Below, piece after piece: positions 8,633 to 32,683 of a stretch of 33,461 bases of DNA (within the stretch, counting starts at the first letter, position 1; every line of letters starts with the position of its first letter). Both the position numbers and the translations under genes were made by a program. The notes beneath the pieces were generated by a model. It saw only the letters and a list, made by a program, of their open reading frames with translations. It was not told where the DNA came from and searched no databases. The stretch spans positions 1-33,461 of the IMG/VR virus record IMGVR_UViG_3300010354_000312; one strand, 5' to 3'. This DNA is from a virus.

Positions 8633-8661
8633 TGTCCGAGAGTTTTAGCATGTGCTACAGT
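8632..8661 (+). promoter_or_regulatory. promoter with TAGCA-N2-TGCTA operator (site 1)
   Basis: TTGTCC at 8632-8637, an 18-base spacer and TACAGT at 8656-8661. The perfect palindrome TAGCATGTGCTA (8646-8657) overlaps the -10 box, so a bound protein would block the polymerase. The same arrangement recurs at 9732-9760 and 14276-14304. Confidence 0.7.
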
Positions 8662-14277: not shown

Positions 14278-14304
14278 TCACTAACCTTTAGCAGTTGCTA
14301 CACT
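14276..14304 (+). promoter_or_regulatory. promoter with TAGCA operator (site 3)
   Basis: TACACT at 14299-14304 is the -10 box, overlapped by the perfect palindrome TAGCAGTTGCTA (14289-14300). The -35 is weak (GATCAC at 14276-14281, 17-base spacer), so an activator or low strength is likely. It overlaps the end of the polymerase gene and precedes the gene at 14328. Confidence 0.6.
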
Positions 14305-17177: not shown

Positions 17178-17181
17178 CGTT

Positions 17182-17269
17182 CCGCAGAACGTTCCGCAGA
17201 TTCCGCAAAAGCGTTCCGCGGATTCTGCAAACCGTTCTGCAGATTCTGCAGAATCGTTCTGCAAATGCA
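17182..17269 (+). repeat. tandem TTCYGCA iteron-like array
   Basis: Eight tandem copies of TTC(C/T)GC(A/G) run across this stretch. They alternate in spacing so that pairs repeat every 21-22 bases, two helical turns. A perfect 14-base palindrome GATTCTGCAGAATC lies near the 3' end. The array fills the start of a 302-base gap (17178-17479) that also holds the TAGCA palindrome at 17323-17334 and leader cassette A. Phased iterons like these are typical of replication-initiator sites. Confidence 0.75.
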
Positions 17270-17301
17270 CACCGCGGAATCTTGACTTCCTGCCCCGCCT
17301 C

Positions 17302-17479
17302 GGTGCATCCTGCACTTGCTTCTAGCACTTGCTAGAACCGCATCGAGCGCGAAATCCCCCTAGCGCTCTGTTGGCTTTACATTTTTGTAAGGTCATACTA
17401 TACATTATGCGTACAATGTGGGGTGTTTTGAGTTGAGCACTTGCTAAAGAAAGCTGTAGCAACGACCGAAAGGAAGATC
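17302..17479 (+). promoter_or_regulatory. leader cassette A (promoter, operator palindromes)
   Basis: It contains GGTGCATCCTGCAC (17302-17315, hairpin) and the palindrome TCTAGCACTTGCTAGA (17321-17336). A consensus promoter follows: TTTACA 17376-17381, 17-base spacer, TATACA 17399-17404. TATACATTATGCGTA is shared with cassettes B and C. AGCACTTGCTA (17436-17446) with TAGCA (17457-17461) gives three half-sites. The transcript would start near 17411. Confidence 0.7.
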
Positions 17480-17776
17480 GTGAAAAATGACCTCACCGAA
17501 GCCCGGCAGCCCCCCGAAGACTTTGCCGCCGACGCGCATCGCCTCGCATTAGAACTTGAGTGCCTGCTGCTGAGCACCAAGGACACGGCGGCCCTGAGTC
17601 GCTGGTGGGACTCGGCTCACGAGGCCTTGGAGCAACACCGCCAGCTCGTGCGTGACACCTATAGCGAACCACCAGCGAACCCAATGGCGAACCACGTCGA
17701 AACTTCTGGTTCGCCATGCCCAACCTGCGTGGCCCTGGCTCGTGCGGTCATGTGTGACCAAACAGGTCATGCCTGA
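17480..17776 (+). CDS. 98-residue hypothetical protein behind leader A
   Basis: GTG 17480 is preferred because AAAGGA lies just upstream and because earlier in-frame starts fall inside the operator hairpin. The product has a helical N-terminal half (AHRLALELECLLLSTKDTA, ALSRWWDSAHEALEQHRQLV). The C-terminal part has C-P-T-C in GSPCPTCVALARAV, possibly half of a metal site. No family is recognised. The next gene, a 30-residue zinc ribbon, starts in its stop codon (TGATG). It is probably an accessory protein under operator control. Confidence 0.6.
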   Translation: MKNDLTEARQPPEDFAADAHRLALELECLLLSTKDTAALSRWWDSAHEALEQHRQLVRDTYSEPPANPMANHVETSGSPCPTCVALARAVMCDQTGHA

Positions 17777-17868
17777 TGTGGTGCGAGCACTGTGGTTATC
17801 GCCGCGCCACGCGCGGGTCAATCCTGTGTCGCAAGTGCTTTTTTGAATTTGTGAAGGACCCGGAATGA
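17776..17868 (+). CDS. 30-residue zinc-ribbon microprotein
   Basis: A tiny frame starting in the stop codon of the previous gene (TGATG) encodes two C-x-x-C knuckles. W-C-E-H-C lies at residues 2-6 and C-R-K-C at 18-21, with a basic loop (RRATR) between and an aromatic, acidic tail. The spacing of 11 residues between knuckles fits a minimal treble-clef or zinc ribbon. It probably binds zinc and acts as an adaptor or nucleic acid binder. It is too short for common gene callers. Confidence 0.6.
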   Translation: MWCEHCGYRRATRGSILCRKCFFEFVKDPE

Positions 17869-17876
17869 AGCAATGT

Positions 17877-18116
17877 TGCTAAAGCGTGCAAGCCCGATCC
17901 GGTGCATCGTGCACGCAAACATAAGGCACGTTACACGTATGAGGCAAAACGTGAAGAACGGCTCGGAAGTGCTTGATCCGGTGCAGTAAATTAGGGTCAA
18001 CTTTTTGATGGACCGAGGGTTGCCCCCGCCTCGGTCTATACATTATGCGTCCCCAAACGGGGGTTGACGGTTGAGCAGCTGCTACAGGAATCTGTAGCAG
18101 TTTTGAAAGGTAAACG
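17877..18116 (+). promoter_or_regulatory. leader cassette B (repeat copy 1 of a ~230-nt element)
   Basis: It begins with TTGCTAAAGC and shares order and sequence with cassette C: the GGTGCATCGTGCAC hairpin (17901-17914), AAACATAA, TTACACGTAT, AACGTGAAG, GCTCGGAAGTG and GTGCAGTAA. The hairpin GACCGAGG/CCTCGGTC then sits just before TATACATTATGCGT (TATACA at 18037-18042). CCCCAAACGGGG follows. AGCAGCTGCTA 18074-18084 plus TAGCAG 18095-18100 forms a perfect 9-bp hairpin CTGCTACAG/CTGTAGCAG. An AAAGG ribosome site ends it. Confidence 0.75.
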
Positions 18117-18536
18117 ATGATGGAAACCAAACTCTGGGAGGCTCGCCACCCGTACTACTGCACTGAAGGCAACTACTTCAGTTCGCAGAGCCACCACCAA
18201 ACGATCTGGCCGTTCAAATCGTGGGCCGAGTTTCTGGACGAGATGAACGATAGCGACCTGGACTACAACCTTCTGTTCCGTTGGGACTGGCAGGAAGGTG
18301 AAGACCACGATCTAGGGCCGTACAGCGGCGACGACTACTACCGCAACGGTCGTCTGTTGCTGTTCTTCATGCACCAGCGCAAGGGTTACCACAGCACGAG
18401 CATTGTCGAGGTTTGCCGAGCGGACGAGCCAGCGGTGCGGGTGTGGCTTGCACCGCGCTTGGCGCATCTGCTGTCCCTTTGGTCGCCACTGATCACTGCA
18501 GAGTTTGGCAATTCGATATTTGCTAAAGCCGCGTGA
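18117..18536 (+). CDS. conserved-type phage hypothetical protein behind leader B
   Basis: The 139-residue product begins with W-E-A-x-H-P-Y-Y-C and GNYFSSQ. KSWAEFLDEMNDSDLDYNLL and FRWDWQEG follow, then LLLFFMHQRKGYHSTSIVEV and CRADEPAVRVWL. This order occurs in small phage proteins of unknown function that I recall from many proteobacterial phages. The aromatic and acidic content suggests a soluble protein that binds a partner. AAAGG precedes ATG 18117; ATG 18120 is the alternative. It follows cassette B, so it is likely regulated with the genes behind A and C. Confidence 0.75.
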   Translation: MMETKLWEARHPYYCTEGNYFSSQSHHQTIWPFKSWAEFLDEMNDSDLDYNLLFRWDWQEGEDHDLGPYSGDDYYRNGRLLLFFMHQRKGYHSTSIVEVCRADEPAVRVWLAPRLAHLLSLWSPLITAEFGNSIFAKAA

Positions 18537-18757
18537 CCAGATTTAGCAGCCCTGGTGCATCCTGCACGCAAACATAATGAACCTTACACGTATCAAAAAA
18601 AAAAAACGTGAAGTTAGGCTCGGAAGTGTTTGATTCAGTGCAGTAAGTTAGGGCTAGAAAGTTGATAGTCCGAGGGTTACCCCCGCCTCGGTCTATACAT
18701 TATGCGTACCGGAACGGGGGGCTTGACTAGAGCAACTGCTAAAGGAATGATTAGCAA
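18519..18757 (+). promoter_or_regulatory. leader cassette C (repeat copy 2 of the ~230-nt element)
   Basis: It begins TTGCTAAAGC inside the end of the previous gene, then TTTAGCAG, GGTGCATCCTGCAC (18554-18567), a 12-base A run (18595-18606), AACGTGAAG and GCTCGGAAGTG. GTGCAGTAA follows, then CCGAGG/CCTCGG and TATACATTATGCGTA (TATACA 18694-18699). AGCAACTGCTA at 18731-18741 and TTAGCA at 18751-18756 flank AAAGGA. The hairpin TGCTAA/TTAGCA would hold the ribosome site, and ATG 18758 begins two bases after it. Confidence 0.75.
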
Positions 18758-19084
18758 ATGCCCAAGCCTCCGACCGACTGGCACCCATCCCAGCGCCACA
18801 AACCCATCCCCGAAAGCCCGGTCAACAAGGCCCGCCGGCTGCGTGCTGAACGCATCGCCAAGGTCATCGCCGAGGCCAGCGTTCACCCGTTCCCGGCCCA
18901 GCCCGAGCGCCCGAGGCCCGTAGCCGTGCCGCCAGCGCCACCTGTTCCAGCCACTGCGCCCAAGCCGCCGCCGTTGGCGGTCATGGTCGTGATGGCGAGA
19001 GTACCCGAGGACACGCTCGAGGCTCCGCCCGCAGTCGCGGCACCACCTGAGGTGCCGCCCGCACCCGCCGCGCCAACGGAGTAG
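18758..19084 (+). CDS. hypothetical protein behind leader C, 3' half antisense to tail gene
   Basis: The 108-residue frame starts right after cassette C. Residues 1-43 look like normal protein (MPKPPTDWHPSQRHKPIPES, then NKARRLRAERIAKVIAEASV, basic and helical). Residues after about 43 are almost only P, A and V. That stretch is the antisense of the glycine-rich tail gene on the other strand (18883-19332), with a 202-base overlap. The second half may therefore be a by-product of a recombination joint that replaced the original end. The N-terminal part is better supported than the tail. Confidence 0.45.
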   Translation: MPKPPTDWHPSQRHKPIPESPVNKARRLRAERIAKVIAEASVHPFPAQPERPRPVAVPPAPPVPATAPKPPPLAVMVVMARVPEDTLEAPPAVAAPPEVPPAPAAPTE

Positions 19085-22999: not shown

Positions 23000-25900
23000 T
23001 TATTGCTTGCTCTCTGGGCTTGGGGTGCCGGTGAGTAACCCCCGCGCGAGATCCCCTGGACCGGTGGGGCTGATCTTGTCGTCCTCCATTCCGGCCAGGT
23101 AACCGATCGGCCTGGCGAACGCGATGGCCGGCAGCCCTGTGACGATGCTGACCGCACTCGCCACGTCGCGGACGGCGTTGCGGGCGTTAAGCTTGTCGGG
23201 GTCGGCAATTGCGTTGTAGACGTCCAGCGGCACCCCCACCGCGGACTCAAGCAAACTCACCGCCGGCGACAGGCTCATCTTGTCGTCTGCGGGGTTGCTG
23301 TTGAACCGATTGATGGCGGCGTTGGCCAGCTGGCCGATGAACGGGACCATGGCCAGCGTGCCCTTGATCGTGCCCATACCGAACACCGCGGCGAGCCAGT
23401 CGTCCAGGTAACCGTCGTCGTCCTTGTCCTCTGGGCCCCCGCGCATCGCGATGGCGATCGCCTCCGCCATCCAGAGCGGAGCCAACATGCCGAGAGTGAC
23501 AATTCCCAGAGCTTTTCCTGCGCCCTTTCTGAGGCCCTGCTCCTGCGCGATTTGCTTGAGCGCGGTCGCGTTCGTGTTGGCCATCATGTTGAAGTAGCCC
23601 ACGAACTGCGTGAACACTCGAGCGTAAGCCGGGCCCGTCTCGATGCGGCTCACGTCCTCAGGCAGGGTCGAACCCTGCGTTTGGCGAATGAGCGAGTCGG
23701 CATATTTCACCGCCTCGGCATCGTCCATGTTCTTGGCCAGGGCTGCGTTGTAGCCGGCCGTCCAGATTATCGGCTCCATGGTGTTGGCCATGGCCGTCTG
23801 CAGGAAATAGGAGTGCTTCAAGGCCCAGGCCTGGCTCTTCTCGTACAGGCTGGGGTCCAGAAGAATGTCGTCCATGGCCCCGTTGATCGCCGAAATCTCA
23901 TTCTCCATCCGCGCTGCCATGAAGGGGCTGGCAGCCGCCACCGACCTGGCCATCTTTCGGGGTCCGGCGATAAACATCGCCGTCGACCGCGTAAGCTGCG
24001 ACTGAAGGCCGTCGGCCTTGAGCTTGGACATTGCGGTCAGAAAGCCGGTGGTCTGCTGCAGGGTGTTGCTGATGTTGCCAAACATGAGCGCCATGCCCGC
24101 CCGCGAGCGAGCTGCGGAGAGCACTCGAGAAATGCCGCCATCACCCACGATCGGGGTTTCGACGATCTGGCGGGCGCTGCGGTTGAGCCAGGGGGTCAGC
24201 ATGCCGGCGTAGATCGTCGGGTCAATGCGGCCCAGGCTGTAGCTCACACCCTTGCGGGAGAGCAACTTGTTCACGTCGCGCACCGCGGGTTCCATGTGCG
24301 TGAACAGCAGCACCTTGTCGATGTGCTGGCCGATCGTGCGCAGGTCCAGCATCAGGGGGCGGTTGTACTCGACCCGCCCCTTGGTGAACCCTTTGTTGGT
24401 GCCCGGGAAAGAGAACGCCATGTTCTCGTTCTCGGTCGTGGCCAGATCGCGCAGCGCGGCGTCCTGGACAATGCGCGGGTCGGCCTGGGCCGGGACGTAG
24501 CCGCCGCGGTAACTGCCGAACGGGGTGTCGAAACTGTCAGCCGTGACCTCGGCAAAATAGCGTCCGAACACGTCGCGGTGAGTCTTCTGCGCCGCGGGCT
24601 TGGTCTGCTCTAGCAAATCCCACACGCCCTGCGCGAAATCGTAATGTGCCTTGGTCAGCAGCCCCGTGTCCTGCATGCGCTTGACGAAGGCATCCCACTT
24701 GCTGGTGTCCATCGTGCCGTCGGCGTTCTCTGTGGCCCAGCCACGGCCCAGCAGCAGCTTGCGCTTGTTGCTCTCGTTGCCGGTGTGCAGGACTGCGTGC
24801 AGCAGCTCGGCGTGGCCGATGCCGTTGTGCCCCTTGCCAAACGTGTAGCGGAGCTCTGGCGCCTCGATCAGGCCCTTCTTGAGGGACGGCGCCACCGTGT
24901 CGATCAGCGCCTGGTAGGCCTTGCGATACTTCACCCGCTCGGTGCGGTAGGTGTCGGCGGCCTGCTTGATGGGCTGGAACACCAGCCGGGTGAACTCCTT
25001 GCCCATCCCCGCAGCCCACTGTTCAGTGCGGCGCAGCAAGGACCCGGCAAACTGCAGTGTCCGCTTGGCCTTCTCCGAGGGCGTGATGGCGCTGGATTCT
25101 CCAGGGATGGAATCGGGCACGCCGATCGCCTGCATGCGGGCCTGGAGCTCGTCCTCGGCCTCCTGCATGTCGATCAGGTTGCCGTCGACCTCCATCATGC
25201 GTGAGCGCTTCGCCAGGTGCCACATGGCCTGGATCTCTTCGTGCAGGCCGCGCAGCTCTTCCATCGTCAGCGACTCGAGGGGCTGCGCCATGTTCAGCGC
25301 ACCCTGCACGCTGGGCTGCAGTGCTGCGAACATCGCCGGGTCGTTCTTCTCGACCAGTGCCAGGTACTCGATCGCGTTCTTGCTGGCCTTGGGTGCGGCG
25401 CCATAGGCGCCAAGCACCGCGCGAGCCGCGTTCACCACGTCCGGGTCGCGGCCCTTCTCGACGATCTTCTCGTTGCCATCCTTGTAGACGCGCTTGAAGA
25501 ACTCGAGGATCTTGCGCATCTCGGCCTGAGCTTCCAACGCTGCCTTGGCGGCGGAGTTGTTGAGCATCTGGTCCTGCTTGGCCTTGACCGCGTCGGCGGT
25601 CTCACCCTTGGCGGTGTGCTCCTGCCAGCGCTTGCCGGCGCGGCGTTCGGCGGCGGTGTGCTGCGCTGCCTTGCTCTTGAGGTCGCGCAACGGAGTGCTG
25701 GCAACCACGTTGGCTGCGAACTGTTTGGCGGCTTCGAGCAGCGCGTTGACCGTGATCTTGTTGCCCGCCGCGTTGAGCTGACCGGTGTCGGTACGGGCGT
25801 TGATCGCTTCGGCCTGGCTCTTGAGTTCAGTGGCCAGTGAGCGAGCGCGGGCCTCGTTGTGGACTGCTTCGTTGGCGGCCTGCTCGATCGAGCGCTGGTC

Positions 25901-28900
25901 GACCAGGTCGCCGTGCTGCTCAAGCATGCGCTGGTCTGTCATGCCTTCGATGACGTCCGACTTCTTGCCGATGGCGTCGATCGCCTGCAGCATGGTGTCC
26001 GCATCGGGATAGCCAAAACTGTCAGCGATCGTTGCCAGATCCGCATCGGTCGGTGCTGCTTTGGTGTCTTTGCGAATCTGATCCAGCGCTGCCTTGGCCC
26101 GGAACTCTGGCATCGCGTTGACTTCGAGCGTGACCTCCTCCTCCACCCCCTTGCGCAATTCGGCGGCCTGCTTTTGCAGCGCTTTGATCGCCCTGCTGCG
26201 GGCGTTCACAGTCCACTTCAGATCGCGCAAGGACCTGGCTGTGAGCTTCTCCATTGCTTCCGCCGTGGCTTCGTCGTCGGGCAGAAGGCCCGCGACTCTC
26301 TCCGCCTCGGCGATCTGCACATCGCTGGCCAGCATCCGATCGAATACCTGGCGCACTTCGTCGGACAGCTGGATGTTGCCGTCAGGGTGCCCAGCGACGA
26401 ACGCCTTCAACGATTTATAGACGTTGAGCATCCAGGCGCGGAACTTACGGAACAGCGGCTGCAGCTCTACGCTTGGGGCCTTGCCCTCGAGGAGGTATTG
26501 CTCGAAGGATTCTGCAAAGCGCTCGTGGTACTGGCGCTTCTGATCCAGGGTCATCGCGTTCCAGACTTCCAGCGGGGTGCGTCCTGCTGGTTGCGTGTTG
26601 TCTGTTGGTAGGTTGCCGTCTTGGGCTAGCAAGTTGACGCTGGCGGCGTTATCCGGGTCAAAGGCGGCAAATACGCTGCGCAACTGTGACGGATCCGCCA
26701 GCACGTATTCTTTGCCACGGATAGCATTCTTGGCGTCTGAGTGCTTTACCGATCCTTTGCGGCTGATTGCGTCATCTCGCACCAGCGTGTCGTAGCCCAT
26801 CTTTTTGTGCTCGGGCACGTAACCCGCGGGCAGCGGCGCTCCCAAAGGAAGACCGGGGCGCATCGGAAACGGCTCGTTGCGTGCAAGAACTTTACCGGGC
26901 TTGATAAATACTGGAATAACGCTTTTTTGGAATCTTTGATTGGGTTTGCCATCAACAAAACCGTATTCGCCAAACCGATCAAGGTAGCGGCTTGCCATCT
27001 CTGGGTTGTCCGTCACCGAGACGCCGCTAGTGCCCGTGTAACCCATGAAATTGCCAGCGGGTTTGAATCCTTTAATGTCGGCCAGCGTGGAGTGGTAGAG
27101 CACGGTGTCGGTGTCAAAGCCCATCGCTTTGGCGCGAGACATACGCCCTTCGGTTGACATGTCCAGCCCTTTGGCGACGGCTGCCAGCCATTCCGCTGCC
27201 TCACCAGAATCTTGACCTGCGTACCCCGCGGCGGCCGCTTGGTTAAGCACTCCGCCTGCATCCTCCCCACCAACGGTCTCGTCGCCCTTGATCCCGAACC
27301 ACTTCATCAGCGCGGCCATGTCCTGCTGGATATCCGCAGGGGCGCCTGGCTGTGTCGCCAGGTCGGCCATCACCTCGAGGAAGAAGTGGCCGGTCTCGTG
27401 CAGGAACGTGGAGAGGTCGGCGTTCTCGTTGAGCGCCAATTCCAGCGTGCCGGGGTTGAACGTGCCGCGGGGCCCCTGCTGCAGTTCGCCGCCCTGCTCC
27501 ACCATGACGCGCGCCGGCACGCTGGTGTAGCCAAGCTGGCGCAAGGCGTAGGCCCGGTGCTGGCCTTCGGCGACATAGCGCGAGCCGTCGGCGCGTTGCG
27601 CCACGAACAAAGGCTCGATGGAACCGTTTTTCTTGATCTGTTCGGCCAGGGCGGCGATGCGCTTCTGCTCGGGCTCAGAGCGCAGAAACGCGGAGTCCTG
27701 CAGCGTGACTTCGGTCAGCGGAATCTCGCGCACTCCCGGCTGAATGGTGAACGGGCCATCGGCGAAAGCCGAGGCCGCGCTCACTCTGATGTCTGCGGAT
27801 GAGCGACGCAGCTTCAATCCTTGGAAATCTTCGATCCGGGGGAACTCGACGCGCTGCTCGAGCACGCCCTGCTCTGCCATGTCGCCAACAAGCCCTTCGC
27901 TCCAGGTCCACTCGGGCATGAGCCCTGTCTTCTGATCAGCAAAGACAGTGTCCTCAACCTTGGCAGTTTGATTGGTGGCCCCGTGCGGCCCAAAGTTTAG
28001 CCAGGAGTTTTGCCCGCGGGTCTCGCTGGTGATTGCGCCCTGGGCGCTGCCGGTGAACAGGCGGATGTGTGCCTGCCAAGCGTTCTCTTCGCCCTGGGCG
28101 CGGAAGCCTGCACCCTCGAGCCCGTGGCCGAATGCGTCATGCACGGCACGGAATAGGTCGTTGGCCAGCACCGGCTTGAGTTCGCCGTCGGGTGAACCGT
28201 AGGCCCAGGTGATGCCTGTGTCGGCCATCAAGGGGTTGTCGGAGACGTCCACCTCGGTGGCGCCGCTGCCGAACCCTGCGACCGTTGGAAACACGCCCAT
28301 GGTCTGGGTCGAGCGCAGGTCGCGCATCGCATCCCAGGGGCTCTTATAGGGGTCGTTGGTGGGGTCGATGAACCAGAACTTGTACCCGGCAGCTTCGAGG
28401 GCTCGGTACTGCGCCAGGGTCTGGCGGATCAGGTTATCGTAGGCTTCTCTGACCGCAGGGTCCTGCGGGTTGTGCTGCATCGCCTCATAGGCGGCAGCAA
28501 TCCGAGCGGCGCGCTCGGGGTCGACAGTTACATATTCGGCTTGTCGCTTGAGGTTGATGCCGTTGTCGCGGGCGTACTGCTCTGCGACTGAGGCGAGTCG
28601 GGGGTCTGGCCCTGTTGCGCCTTCAATGACTGGAGCGCCCGGAAGCGGCGCCGGTCCTGCACCAGGACTGCGTCCGCCTCTGTCTCCGGCTTGTTCAAGT
28701 TGTCCATTTACTTCTCCAGTTTGGTTGGAGGTGCCGGCGCCGGAATTTCCTCCAACCCCATCTCCACCCGGCGATTGAACGCCCGCAGTTGCTCGTCCGC
28801 TTCCTCTTGCGAGTCTACGGGCCTCAATGTCGGATCGAGCTCGTTCGATGGCTGCGTTGATTTCGTCATCGGAGATTCCTTGTTGGCGGGCAAGCGCGAC

Positions 28901-31900
28901 GGCAGCGTTGGCATAGTCGGGAGCTTCTTCGTCATTGTACCCCTCCGCGTCCTGTTCCTGGGCGCCAGCTGCGTCGTACAACGTCTTTTCCGGGTACCAC
29001 ATCAGGGCCTGGAAGTCAGCCATCGTCAGGCTGGGGTGGTCCTTCTGAAGCTCCGTCAGGACGTCCTGGGAGACGGCGCGCATCATATCTCGACGGCGCG
29101 AGCCACCCGGCACTTCGATCTGCCCGTCGAGGTTGCCGTAATATGCCTTGGCGGCCTTGCGCAGCTCGTCGCCGATCGACACAAAGTCCTTCAGCTTGCC
29201 CCGTGCAGAAGCCGCTGCGGCCTCGCGCTCGGGCGTGGCCGGCAACACGTCGTCCAGGGCGCGGCGCACGTTTTCGGCCGAGGTCGCCTTGATGATGGCC
29301 TTGGCCATTTCAACAGGATTGCCTTTGCCCAGCCGCGTGCCGATGGCTTGCTCGACTGCGCGGGTCGCTGCCTTGTCCTCCTTGATCATCTCGATCAGGG
29401 AGACAAAGGAATCCCGGGAGGCTTTGATCTTGTCGCGGTCAACCTCCACCAGGTCGCCGGTGATGCGGCCCCACATGCGTACCCACCAGCGATCCATCGT
29501 CAGCTGGCCAAACTCACCATACAGGTTCATGAAGAACCCGTTGCCGATCTTCGGGCCGACAACGCCGGCGCCGTAGACCATTGTGTCCATACCCTCGCCG
29601 CTTACACCACGGCCAAAGTCCGCCTTGACCTGGCGGTTGGGTTGCAGGGTGGTGGCAAACGCCTTGAACTTGTCGTAGCCCCAGCGGGCGCTCAGATTGT
29701 TGTAGGTGGCGAGAGCCTCGTGGATCTTGCTTGCGGTCGGGCCGATACCGATGCCGGAGGTCGGCATCGTGCGCTTGGCTGGATCGGCGTCACTGGCTTT
29801 CCACTGCCCGTAGGCACGGTTGGCCATCTCAAAGTTTTTGTCTACTTTGACCCCATTGCTGGTCACCGCCAGCGCCCAGGTAAAAGCAAACCGTGCTTGC
29901 TCGTCGGTCGAGAGTTCAGGGTGAACCACGGAGGCGACAGCCAGCGCGATGGTCACCTTCTCGTCGTACCAGCCGATCGCGTTTGCGTTGGTGATAATCG
30001 CTTCACGCGCCTCTTTTAGCATCTGCCGGGTGATGTACGCACGGTTCTCGGGCGTGTCTTGGCGCAGGTCTCGCGTGCCCGTGACCGCACGAACAGCGGC
30101 CTGAATCGCCATCTTGAAGTCGCGGTTCGACGGCCACTGACGCGAAGCAGCAATTACCCGGGCGTTGCTGACATCCGCGGCGTCGCTTACTGCGGCTGGC
30201 ACTGGGCGTTCAGCGCGCTGTGCATAGCTCTCTGCCGGCGTCGCGGCCTCGAACGCCTTGACCAGGTCCGACTTGTAAAGGTTCTCGTTGGCATTGCCAG
30301 CGAAGATGCCAGCGGCCTCAAGCGCGGCGTGAACCTCGGGCAGCTGGGCCTGCAGTATTTCGCTCCAACGAGCCCGCGTGGGCGAGCCTGAGGGCAGCCC
30401 CTTCGCAGCGTTCAGCGCGTCGACAATCGCATCGCGCCCCTTGCTCTCGCGTGCTTGCGGAGCGGGAACAACCTGGCCCTGCAGTTTGGTGGCGGGGCCG
30501 ATCGCTTCCGTGGGGATGGTCTGCTCGCCCAGCATGATGACCTGGCCGGATTGTGTGCCCTCCATGCGGGTTAGGTAGCCTGAGAATCCGGCATCCAGCA
30601 CGGCTGACTCAAACGCCAGCTGGCCCCCCTTCTTCAGACGCAACGGATCGGCGTCGGCGTCGTAGACGTTGGTGAGCTGTGCTTTCTGCGCAATCCCACC
30701 CACGCCGGCCTCGGGATTGATGCCTGTGCCCTTGTCCACATAAAAGTACGCACGCCTGCGCAGGCGGTCGTCTGCTGCGTTCAGGTACTGGTCTCGGTTG
30801 TTTCCCTGCAACCCCGTACCAAACATGGCGGTGTCGATCTGTGGGCGCGGTTCGTTGCTGAAGTGGAAGCCCTCGACAGCAATTTCCCCGACCTTGCCAG
30901 CTTTGAGTGTTTCGCCCTGCCCGCTCTGGGCCGTAATGCGCAGCGGATACCTTTCGGCCATCTGCTCAGGCGTAATGCCCAGGCGACCGGCCATCGTCGT
31001 ATAGAACGCGGTGGTCCAGGTTGCGTATGCCTCGTTCACCTGCGCGCGGAACCGGCCAGCGGCGTTGAGCTGGTCGAGCACGCCCTGCTTCACCCGGTCG
31101 CTCGACTCTTGCATGGCGCGCTGATCTTGGGCCTGGTCAATTACTCGTTTCGCTTCCTGCTGCAAAAACTCCTGAGCTTTGGCGCTTGCGTCCTTTGCTT
31201 CGGCCAGGCTCATGGAGTTGGGACCAGCGACGCGGGCGTTCTCGATGAAAAACTGCTCGAGGGGTGTGCCTGGCGCGACCGTCAGCACATCACCCACGGG
31301 CACCGAGATGAGTGTGTCCTCCGTGACTTGCGCGGCCAGCTGTTCCTGCACGGAGGCAGGCATCTGGGCCAGGAGCTCTGGCGCCAGCTGGTTCAGGACC
31401 CCGGCGTCGATGTAGACCTCAGAGGGGGCGCCGTTGGTGCCTTCCGCCATGGACTGCACCAGGGATCGGAACTCCTCGGGGCTTTGTTCGCGAAGGGTCG
31501 CCTGCATGGCCGCGGCCATCTGTTCCTGCAGCCGTTGCGCGTGCTGCTCGGCGCTGGTGGTGTCCATCTGGCGCTCAAGCACGTTGCGCGTGCCCTGGAC
31601 GACACCGCCCGTTGCAAGCCCCGCCAGAAGACCCATCGCGGCGGCCTTACCCACGCCCTGCCCGAGGGGCTTATCGGTGGCCCAGTTCTGCCACATTGTT
31701 TCTTGGACTGACTGAGGCAGTTCCTCGAACAACCCTTCGGAGATCCCCGCCTTAGCAATCGAGGAAATGAATCCTTGCTTTGCGGCCGATGCGGTGGCCT
31801 GGTCGAGGCCGTTTCGGACAAGTGCGGTATCAATGTCGGCGAGGCCCCGCTTGCTGGAAACCCAGCCACCCACTGCGCCAAACAACGCGGTGCCGGCGCC

Positions 31901-32683
31901 GGACATCGTGGCCGCCACGATTTGCTTTACGCTCAGGAGCCCATCGTCGGTTTGCTGGCGGATTTGCTCTGCCGCCCCGCCTGCGCCCATCACACCCTCG
32001 CCGAGCGCAGCTGCCAACCAGGGGGCCGCCTTTGGGGCGTATTTCAGAAACTGCTTACCCCAGAAGCTCCCGCCCAACATCTGTGGCACCGATTCAACGG
32101 CGGTGTTGGCGATGGTGCTGGGGTTCTGAAGGGCTGCCGCGGCGGTGGAGACAAAGTCCTCCGCCTCTTGAACTACCAGGTTCGCTTGCTGTTGGGCGGG
32201 CGAGTACAACGAATCGAGAATTTCTTGGGTCTCGCGAAACTTGATGCCGGACTGTTCGACCAGCTTGCCTGCGTAGCCAAAGGTCGGAATGTTGGCCAGG
32301 CCGACAAAGGATTCCGGCAGTCCGACGGCGGCCTTTAGCGCGGTGACTCCTGCATCCCCTAGCGTGCCCATGACGGTTCGATCAAACGCCTTCTCCACCG
32401 CGGCCAGGCTCTTGGCATCGGTTGCGGCCAGTCGCGCCTTGTCAGAGTCAGACAGCCAACTGCGAAGGACGGGCGCCTTCTCGGTGAACAGGTCCACGTC
32501 CTCGGCTTTAGCCCGCGCCTTGTAATCGTCAGGCGCGGAGCGAATCACAGGGACCGGCACGCTGTAGCGTTTTGCGAGCTTGAAATATTCCGCCTCTTGG
32601 GCCGGGTTGGCGTCGGCGTTCAGGCGAACGGCCAGGGAGGGGTTTGGCTTTGGGTCCTCAAAGAGGTCGGAATAATCGCTCAT
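23000..32683 (-). CDS. giant polyvalent/internal virion (ejection) protein
   Basis: This one frame encodes 3,227 residues. The N-terminus (about 1-400) is helical with G/A-rich hydrophobic stretches. About 600-725 is an ART-like module (VEGFHFSNEP, AYFYVDKGTGINPEAG). About 800-1250 holds NLYGEFGQLTMDRWW. A G/S-rich linker lies at about 1294-1361. VHDAFGHGLEG and ETRGQNSWLNFGPHG lie at about 1510-1560. A ParB-like domain (IPLTEVTLQDS, YVAEGQHRAYALRQLG) spans about 1645-1728. A zincin motif HETGH lies at 1762-1766, and a second ART-like module (VLYHSTLADIKGF) at about 1855-1935. Helical regions with hydrophobic segments follow, with an EF-hand-like loop near 3084. This matches ejected polyvalent proteins that enter the cell with the DNA. 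Confidence 0.88.
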   Translation of the reverse strand: MSDYSDLFEDPKPNPSLAVRLNADANPAQEAEYFKLAKRYSVPVPVIRSAPDDYKARAKAEDVDLFTEKAPVLRSWLSDSDKARLAATDAKSLAAVEKAFDRTVMGTLGDAGVTALKAAVGLPESFVGLANIPTFGYAGKLVEQSGIKFRETQEILDSLYSPAQQQANLVVQEAEDFVSTAAAALQNPSTIANTAVESVPQMLGGSFWGKQFLKYAPKAAPWLAAALGEGVMGAGGAAEQIRQQTDDGLLSVKQIVAATMSGAGTALFGAVGGWVSSKRGLADIDTALVRNGLDQATASAAKQGFISSIAKAGISEGLFEELPQSVQETMWQNWATDKPLGQGVGKAAAMGLLAGLATGGVVQGTRNVLERQMDTTSAEQHAQRLQEQMAAAMQATLREQSPEEFRSLVQSMAEGTNGAPSEVYIDAGVLNQLAPELLAQMPASVQEQLAAQVTEDTLISVPVGDVLTVAPGTPLEQFFIENARVAGPNSMSLAEAKDASAKAQEFLQQEAKRVIDQAQDQRAMQESSDRVKQGVLDQLNAAGRFRAQVNEAYATWTTAFYTTMAGRLGITPEQMAERYPLRITAQSGQGETLKAGKVGEIAVEGFHFSNEPRPQIDTAMFGTGLQGNNRDQYLNAADDRLRRRAYFYVDKGTGINPEAGVGGIAQKAQLTNVYDADADPLRLKKGGQLAFESAVLDAGFSGYLTRMEGTQSGQVIMLGEQTIPTEAIGPATKLQGQVVPAPQARESKGRDAIVDALNAAKGLPSGSPTRARWSEILQAQLPEVHAALEAAGIFAGNANENLYKSDLVKAFEAATPAESYAQRAERPVPAAVSDAADVSNARVIAASRQWPSNRDFKMAIQAAVRAVTGTRDLRQDTPENRAYITRQMLKEAREAIITNANAIGWYDEKVTIALAVASVVHPELSTDEQARFAFTWALAVTSNGVKVDKNFEMANRAYGQWKASDADPAKRTMPTSGIGIGPTASKIHEALATYNNLSARWGYDKFKAFATTLQPNRQVKADFGRGVSGEGMDTMVYGAGVVGPKIGNGFFMNLYGEFGQLTMDRWWVRMWGRITGDLVEVDRDKIKASRDSFVSLIEMIKEDKAATRAVEQAIGTRLGKGNPVEMAKAIIKATSAENVRRALDDVLPATPEREAAAASARGKLKDFVSIGDELRKAAKAYYGNLDGQIEVPGGSRRRDMMRAVSQDVLTELQKDHPSLTMADFQALMWYPEKTLYDAAGAQEQDAEGYNDEEAPDYANAAVALARQQGISDDEINAAIERARSDIEARRLARGSGRATAGVQSPGGDGVGGNSGAGTSNQTGEVNGQLEQAGDRGGRSPGAGPAPLPGAPVIEGATGPDPRLASVAEQYARDNGINLKRQAEYVTVDPERAARIAAAYEAMQHNPQDPAVREAYDNLIRQTLAQYRALEAAGYKFWFIDPTNDPYKSPWDAMRDLRSTQTMGVFPTVAGFGSGATEVDVSDNPLMADTGITWAYGSPDGELKPVLANDLFRAVHDAFGHGLEGAGFRAQGEENAWQAHIRLFTGSAQGAITSETRGQNSWLNFGPHGATNQTAKVEDTVFADQKTGLMPEWTWSEGLVGDMAEQGVLEQRVEFPRIEDFQGLKLRRSSADIRVSAASAFADGPFTIQPGVREIPLTEVTLQDSAFLRSEPEQKRIAALAEQIKKNGSIEPLFVAQRADGSRYVAEGQHRAYALRQLGYTSVPARVMVEQGGELQQGPRGTFNPGTLELALNENADLSTFLHETGHFFLEVMADLATQPGAPADIQQDMAALMKWFGIKGDETVGGEDAGGVLNQAAAAGYAGQDSGEAAEWLAAVAKGLDMSTEGRMSRAKAMGFDTDTVLYHSTLADIKGFKPAGNFMGYTGTSGVSVTDNPEMASRYLDRFGEYGFVDGKPNQRFQKSVIPVFIKPGKVLARNEPFPMRPGLPLGAPLPAGYVPEHKKMGYDTLVRDDAISRKGSVKHSDAKNAIRGKEYVLADPSQLRSVFAAFDPDNAASVNLLAQDGNLPTDNTQPAGRTPLEVWNAMTLDQKRQYHERFAESFEQYLLEGKAPSVELQPLFRKFRAWMLNVYKSLKAFVAGHPDGNIQLSDEVRQVFDRMLASDVQIAEAERVAGLLPDDEATAEAMEKLTARSLRDLKWTVNARSRAIKALQKQAAELRKGVEEEVTLEVNAMPEFRAKAALDQIRKDTKAAPTDADLATIADSFGYPDADTMLQAIDAIGKKSDVIEGMTDQRMLEQHGDLVDQRSIEQAANEAVHNEARARSLATELKSQAEAINARTDTGQLNAAGNKITVNALLEAAKQFAANVVASTPLRDLKSKAAQHTAAERRAGKRWQEHTAKGETADAVKAKQDQMLNNSAAKAALEAQAEMRKILEFFKRVYKDGNEKIVEKGRDPDVVNAARAVLGAYGAAPKASKNAIEYLALVEKNDPAMFAALQPSVQGALNMAQPLESLTMEELRGLHEEIQAMWHLAKRSRMMEVDGNLIDMQEAEDELQARMQAIGVPDSIPGESSAITPSEKAKRTLQFAGSLLRRTEQWAAGMGKEFTRLVFQPIKQAADTYRTERVKYRKAYQALIDTVAPSLKKGLIEAPELRYTFGKGHNGIGHAELLHAVLHTGNESNKRKLLLGRGWATENADGTMDTSKWDAFVKRMQDTGLLTKAHYDFAQGVWDLLEQTKPAAQKTHRDVFGRYFAEVTADSFDTPFGSYRGGYVPAQADPRIVQDAALRDLATTENENMAFSFPGTNKGFTKGRVEYNRPLMLDLRTIGQHIDKVLLFTHMEPAVRDVNKLLSRKGVSYSLGRIDPTIYAGMLTPWLNRSARQIVETPIVGDGGISRVLSAARSRAGMALMFGNISNTLQQTTGFLTAMSKLKADGLQSQLTRSTAMFIAGPRKMARSVAAASPFMAARMENEISAINGAMDDILLDPSLYEKSQAWALKHSYFLQTAMANTMEPIIWTAGYNAALAKNMDDAEAVKYADSLIRQTQGSTLPEDVSRIETGPAYARVFTQFVGYFNMMANTNATALKQIAQEQGLRKGAGKALGIVTLGMLAPLWMAEAIAIAMRGGPEDKDDDGYLDDWLAAVFGMGTIKGTLAMVPFIGQLANAAINRFNSNPADDKMSLSPAVSLLESAVGVPLDVYNAIADPDKLNARNAVRDVASAVSIVTGLPAIAFARPIGYLAGMEDDKISPTGPGDLARGLLTGTPSPESKQ

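Follow-up and report, generated by a model that had tools for sequence, protein, structure and literature searches.

The window analyzed here, a 33.5-kb virus record whose helicase region is nearest to those of Bordetella phage BPP-1 and Burkholderia phage BcepC6B in DNA-level comparison, contains three related noncoding leaders (A, B, and C), each followed by a different small gene. This raises the question of whether the leader is a control element duplicated along with new genes or a site at which genes are exchanged. The leaders lie where the rightward genes stop; according to the ORF list of the window, the long frames beyond 19 kb are leftward.

All leader landmarks claimed in a preliminary description of this DNA were found in place, including a GTGCA-N3-TGCAC hairpin in A, B, and C. 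Leaders B and C, described there as diverged direct repeats, aligned with a mean column identity of 83% and had ungapped blocks of 118 nt (83% identity) and 49 nt (84% identity). Leader A had been said to share their landmarks; this held for a 14-bp box and the part rightward of it (72 to 73% identity over 64 nt), but the 50 bp leftward were only 20 to 24% identical. The box, TATACATTATGCGT, is the strongest element common to the three leaders and is far above chance, as three exact copies are present in the window (at 17399, 18037, and 18694) and shuffles gave 0.36 expected matches even with up to three mismatches allowed. A second motif, AGCANNTGCT, is likewise enriched: the window holds nine copies, four of them in the leader region, where 0.8 would be expected for the whole window. 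A search of the leader region against Rfam returned no relevant match and hence no curated structured-RNA family. The genes behind the leaders are unrelated to each other, as had been proposed, although a conserved family includes the gene behind C in truncated form. The features of the array are listed in Table 1.

Table 1. Positions of array features in the window
Feature	Position	Strand	Description	Basis or match
Type-A left arm	17294-17398	+	GTGCATCCTGCAC, palindrome TTCTAGCACTTGCTAGAA, hairpin GAGCGC..GCGCTC, dyad CTTTACA..TGTAAGG	
Box 1	17399-17412	+	dif-like core, TATACA centre plus TTATGCGT of XerC arm; attI-like site	Exact repeat, switch point
Operator-like site	17436-17461	+	AGCA-N2-TGCT, then TGCTA..TAGCA dyad	Constant distance from box across contigs
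Cassette 1 cargo	17480-17776	+	98-aa ORF, GTG start	No match in Pfam or PHROG
Cassette 1 second ORF	17776-17868	+	30 aa, two CxxC pairs	No match in Pfam or PHROG
Type-B arm closing cassette 1	17876-18036	+	Ends in hairpin CCGAGG..CCTCGG abutting box 2	Alignment of nine B arms
Box 2	18037-18050	+		Exact repeat
Cassette 2 cargo (gene B)	18117-18536	+	139-aa protein	phrog_7880 (family without known function)
Type-B arm closing cassette 2	18520-18693	+		Alignment of nine B arms
Box 3	18694-18707	+		With next three bases, 17/17 to centre plus XerC arm of chromosomal dif
End gene	18758-19084	+	N-terminal part of HTH/DUF3653 family gene, HTH region lost	L041 is an intact relative

The same leader was identified at one locus in approximately 60 viral contigs, where it precedes a conserved HTH/DUF3653 gene. 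Viral contigs were scanned separately with the box, the B hairpin, the A arm, and the downstream operator, and all four patterns converged on the same element. As an unbiased set, 51 loci were gathered using the end-gene protein alone, without the box as a query; the exact 14-mer was found upstream in 39 of these, a version with one to three changes in nine, and none in three. The order of the array was constant. The first box carries a type-A left arm, which was restricted to first copies among the relatives, and subsequent copies carry a type-B arm. A cassette therefore consists of the box, a gene, and a type-B arm, measuring 0.6 to 1.25 kb, and one type-B arm is shared behind unrelated genes, a pattern seen in two lineages. 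The second, diverged lineage (L035 and L067) has other arm sequences in an identical order. The operator begins 25 nt past TATACATTATGCG in nearly all copies, and a pattern with this gap fixed returned 48 stretches. Arrays mostly terminate in the gene for the HTH/DUF3653 protein. In the window, this end gene shares 82.5% DNA identity with its intact relative in L041 for the first 229 or so bases counted from the box, after which the HTH region is missing; its second half is antisense to a glycine-rich leftward frame. The modular accessory locus with swapped cargo that had been suggested is borne out by these relatives, as tabulating the genes behind the leader in related phages gave one leader and varied genes. 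No lysogen and no chromosomal copy of the element were found in 84,980 bacterial and archaeal genomes, the leader was absent from the isolate phages and plasmids searched, and no relative of the HTH protein was present among the isolate phages searched.

Comparisons between contigs located the points at which content changes. L135 and L044 are a clean pair of empty and filled sites: their left sides are 92 to 98% identical and their right sides 93% identical, and L044 has 1617 extra bases, comprising two cassettes, with both ends at the box. Differences of one cassette each, with junctions at the box, distinguish L137 from L035 and L016 from L127. Over the 4 kb that lead to the box, the window is 98.8% identical to L153 (near-identical over 1 kb to the left), and thereafter the two carry different cassettes. 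When 600-bp left flanks and 400-bp right sides were clustered, five left-flank clusters were joined to 18 different right sides, giving at least 13 switches. A first copy and the later ones of its genome usually had 14 to 18 exact bases in common, all on the box, with 12 to 40% identity in the 50 bp to its left, while copies 2 and 3 of an array shared a longer identity of 28 to 42 bp (window and L044). Exchange of content at the box is well supported, with a resolution of the shared 14 to 18 bases. Chimeric assembly was judged an unlikely source of the array because repeats of 14 to 18 bp are shorter than the usual assembly words and the flanks are concordant across several samples. In L201, one variant (GCGC for GCGT) is found in both boxes, at positions 2200 and 3130, as if copies within a phage stay compatible.

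The box corresponds to the centre plus XerC arm of chromosomal dif and lacks the XerD arm. Published dif sites, placed on the window strand, have the XerD arm, centre, and XerC arm in that order, the Bordetella site being ACTTTACATAA-TATACA-TTATGCGAATT (PMC2731167). A scan of bacterial genomes returned dif sites with TATACATTATGCGTACC, in which 17 bases are identical to box 3 and the following three bases; overall, identity between the box and dif was exact across 13 to 17 bases. The right 11-mer was identical to a real XerC arm in 38 of 62 copies and matched at 9 to 10 of 11 positions in the others, compared with at most 9 of 11 for random 11-mers from the window. Similarity of the left arms to XerD arms was at the level of random sequence, lowest for the B copies, and no XerD arm was found left of any box among the copies compared. 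Within the B arm closing cassette 2, CGCAAACATAATGAACCTTACACGTATC (18567-18594) resembles a complete dif (18/28), and other B arms keep the outer parts while the middle six bases vary. This might be a dif relic, but the likeness may be due to chance, since a score of 19 was reached elsewhere in the window.

The combination of a host-dif centre and XerC arm with a divergent XerD arm is also found in the attP of TLCphi and the dif of the gonococcal island, both of which use host XerC/XerD; the partner of the TLCphi site is a complete dif, and TLCphi and CTXphi prophages occur in tandem at dif (PMC5357621, PMC4246890). As in those elements, no element-coded recombinase was found here: a tyrosine recombinase (PF00589) was detected in none of 39 phage records and a serine recombinase (PF00239) in none of 27, though records may be incomplete. 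Those are single sites serving integration of whole elements, whereas the phage boxes delimit tandem one-gene cassettes in tailed phages.

Transcription signals differ between the two arm types. Leader A had been credited with a consensus -35, but the hexamer is TTTACA (5/6), within the A-arm dyad. It may act as a -35, and with a 17-bp spacer and the TATACA of the box it gives a promoter-like 9/12, an arrangement present in most A arms. The absence of a -35 from B and C was correctly noted, as B arms of the window lineage offer the box none (6/12) and box 2 is directly preceded by a hairpin. The earlier view of the leader as mainly a standard switch for each gene is not supported: the near-invariant box is a content switch point and half a dif, and neither the B nor the C arm supplies it with a -35. 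Several copies have a promoter downstream of the box, its spacer containing the operator; this promoter is perfect in copy 3 of L067 (TTGACA-18-TATAAT). Terminator prediction called none at the box. Cargo could plausibly be transcribed by read-through from the A arm, as happens in integrons. TAGCANNTGCTA also recurs far upstream in the relatives, with similar sites kilobases 5' of the array in many, and AGCANNTGCT is intergenic at 8647-8656 and 14290-14299 in the window, upstream of other early genes; on account of this distribution, the TAGCANNTGCTA/AGCANNTGCT site is probably the operator of a phage regulator. A 141-aa protein encoded at 8002 matches the phage repressor family phrog_12107.

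Covariation had been put forward as a check on the hairpins, and it was detected in stems of the A-type leader, clearly in one and modestly in two. The A-arm hairpin GAGCGC/GCGCTC has compensating changes and was perfect in 18 of 26 cases (null mean, 8.3; maximum, 13), and the other two stems were 73% paired versus 33 to 48% when slid. A pairing of the CCCCC loop with a downstream GGGGG was discarded because it is not kept in diverged lineages.

Cargo families could be assigned in a number of relatives: Mom (L035, L137, and L143), N6/N4 methyltransferases (L010 and L067), Dam (L067), a C5 methyltransferase (L151), an Acb2/Tad1-domain protein (L139/L144), a Vut_1 transporter (L129), and an Rv2179c-like exonuclease (L044). 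Proteins without a family assignment also occur among the cargo. Mom and methyltransferases make phage DNA resistant to restriction, and Acb2 acts by sequestering the signals of CBASS. An anti-defence role, raised as a possibility in the preliminary description, therefore fits the family, given that Mom, the Dam, N4/N6, and C5 methyltransferases, and the Acb2/Tad1-domain protein are among the cargo that could be identified; it is not demonstrated for the phage of the window, whose cargo carries no assigned function. Gene B has relatives of 46 to 65% identity in viral loci without any box, and thus it appears to have been drawn from the general phage pool. Its predicted fold is a moderate model (pLDDT, 72) that matched only uncharacterised phage proteins at an E value below 0.001 and had no match in the PDB. 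The start of the B arm at 18520-18536 encodes the C-terminal AKAA of this 139-aa protein, and several cassettes share an AKAA-before-stop ending in this way.

We consider it probable that the locus is an integron-like cassette array of tailed phages, built on half-dif sites and exchanging content within TATACATTATGCGT, with host XerC/XerD the most likely enzymes. The native phage site, comprising the type-A arm, the box, and the HTH/DUF3653 gene, would be the attachment point. A cassette (box, leader, gene, and type-B arm) would form a circle carrying one B-arm/box site, and host XerC/XerD would presumably make the crossover inside TATACATTATGCGT. Phage and cassette would join at their half-dif sites, either directly with each other or as a tandem at chromosomal dif, and then excise jointly; the expected product is A arm, box, cassette, B arm, box, and end gene, the order observed. 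Cargo would be transcribed from the promoter-like A arm and cassette-internal promoters, with TAGCANNTGCTA acting as the operator of a phage regulator. This model has weak points. The left arms do not resemble the XerD arm, so that the model does not account for how XerCD would pair two half-sites; the element is absent from the 84,980 genomes; and in A-type copies the box could double as a -10, a role that might by itself conserve it. As swappable genes are strung at a half-dif sequence, single cassettes seem to be the unit in which the phage trades genes, much like the integrons of bacteria. More tentatively, such arrays could represent a cassette capture system of tailed phages, functionally an integron without an integrase, in which a half-dif site takes up one-gene cassettes closed by a matching half-dif arm and host XerC/XerD serve to load counter-defence genes and swap them between phages.

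Other readings account for parts of these data. The leader could be a regulatory unit shuffled by homology, as for PeSL, through general or illegitimate recombination at the 14 to 18 bases, the likeness to dif being due to chance or irrelevant. General recombination has reportedly been proposed for the PeSL cassettes of T4-type phages, and to our knowledge they have no likeness to dif. Recurrence of hairpin and promoter-like units between shuffled genes, the exact bases common to first and later copies, and the 9/12 score of the A-type promoter are consistent with such shuffling. However, the junctions between phages are at the box even though copies 2 and 3 share 28 to 42 bp and right sides are 32 to 76% alike, neither an ERF nor a RecT annealing protein (the two families searched) was found in 18 records, and 13 to 17 bases match dif exactly; we regard this explanation as rather unlikely. 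Exact identity over the box, even in B arms that lack a -35 for it, and the content switches that it marks also argue against a plain conserved promoter with operators that was duplicated as genes were gained, with no special recombination. The promoter-like spacing in most A arms, the perfect promoter in copy 3 of L067, and operator sites at other early promoters would suit that reading, which is nevertheless highly improbable.

Alternatively, the box could be the attP of a phage that integrates at host dif (an IMEX), the additional copies being passive remnants from the excision of neighbouring elements. The half-dif identity, the presence of a repressor-like gene (phrog_12107) with no integrase found, and the tandem prophages of TLCphi and CTXphi at dif (PMC5357621, PMC4246890) favour this reading. 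The small size of the cassettes, the common type-B arm behind unrelated genes, the recurrence of this pattern in two lineages, and the absence of a lysogen from the 84,980 genomes make it unlikely. The phage array was not filed as a proven IMEX of the TLCphi type because there was no integrated form in these genomes and no XerD arm left of the box.

An Xer-dependent cassette array would resemble several known systems in part. Integrons and CALINs likewise begin with a fixed site, where a promoter lies, and their one-gene cassettes close with a site of another type. The phage array differs from integrons in that no integrase was found (no PF00589 match) and in its dif-like core, with TATACATTATGCGT as the switch point versus GTTRRRY in attC. 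Phages with integron parts and methyltransferase cassettes have already been published, and methyltransferase cargo is common to both (PMC9892861). Published pdif (dif) modules of Acinetobacter plasmids also hold adaptive genes between Xer-type sites, but pdif sites have both arms, are mostly in opposite orientation or have unlike centres, and gave no modular excision in tests (PMC11705084). The phage boxes, in contrast, are in direct order, have one centre, and carry the XerC half only instead of complete arms. The PeSL cassettes of T4-type phages, mobile regulatory units mentioned in PMC4503421, are similar in that a hairpin and promoter-like unit is repeated between shuffled genes. PeSL pairs an early promoter with a terminator-type stem-loop. 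The B arms have a hairpin without a -35, and no terminator was called at the box. A single literature search found no paper linking IMEX and Xer with Caudoviricetes, which is only weak evidence of novelty.

Phage accessory genes, including those for counter-defence, are mostly thought to spread via mosaic recombination. If the proposed mechanism is correct, a defined site at which the chromosome-dimer enzymes of the host take up and release single genes would be a faster route. The box would also serve as a search key. Since Mom, DNA methyltransferases, and the Acb2/Tad1-domain protein are neighbours in this slot, unassigned genes that lie between boxes can be regarded as candidates for novel functions in counter-defence.

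Two further features of the window were recorded. Immediately 5' of the A arm, at 17180-17262, there are repeats of approximately 21 to 22 bp (TTCYGCAGA type), some copies of which are inverted. On the minus strand, positions 23000-32683 form one open frame of 3227 aa, which is unusually long for a 33-kb phage record.
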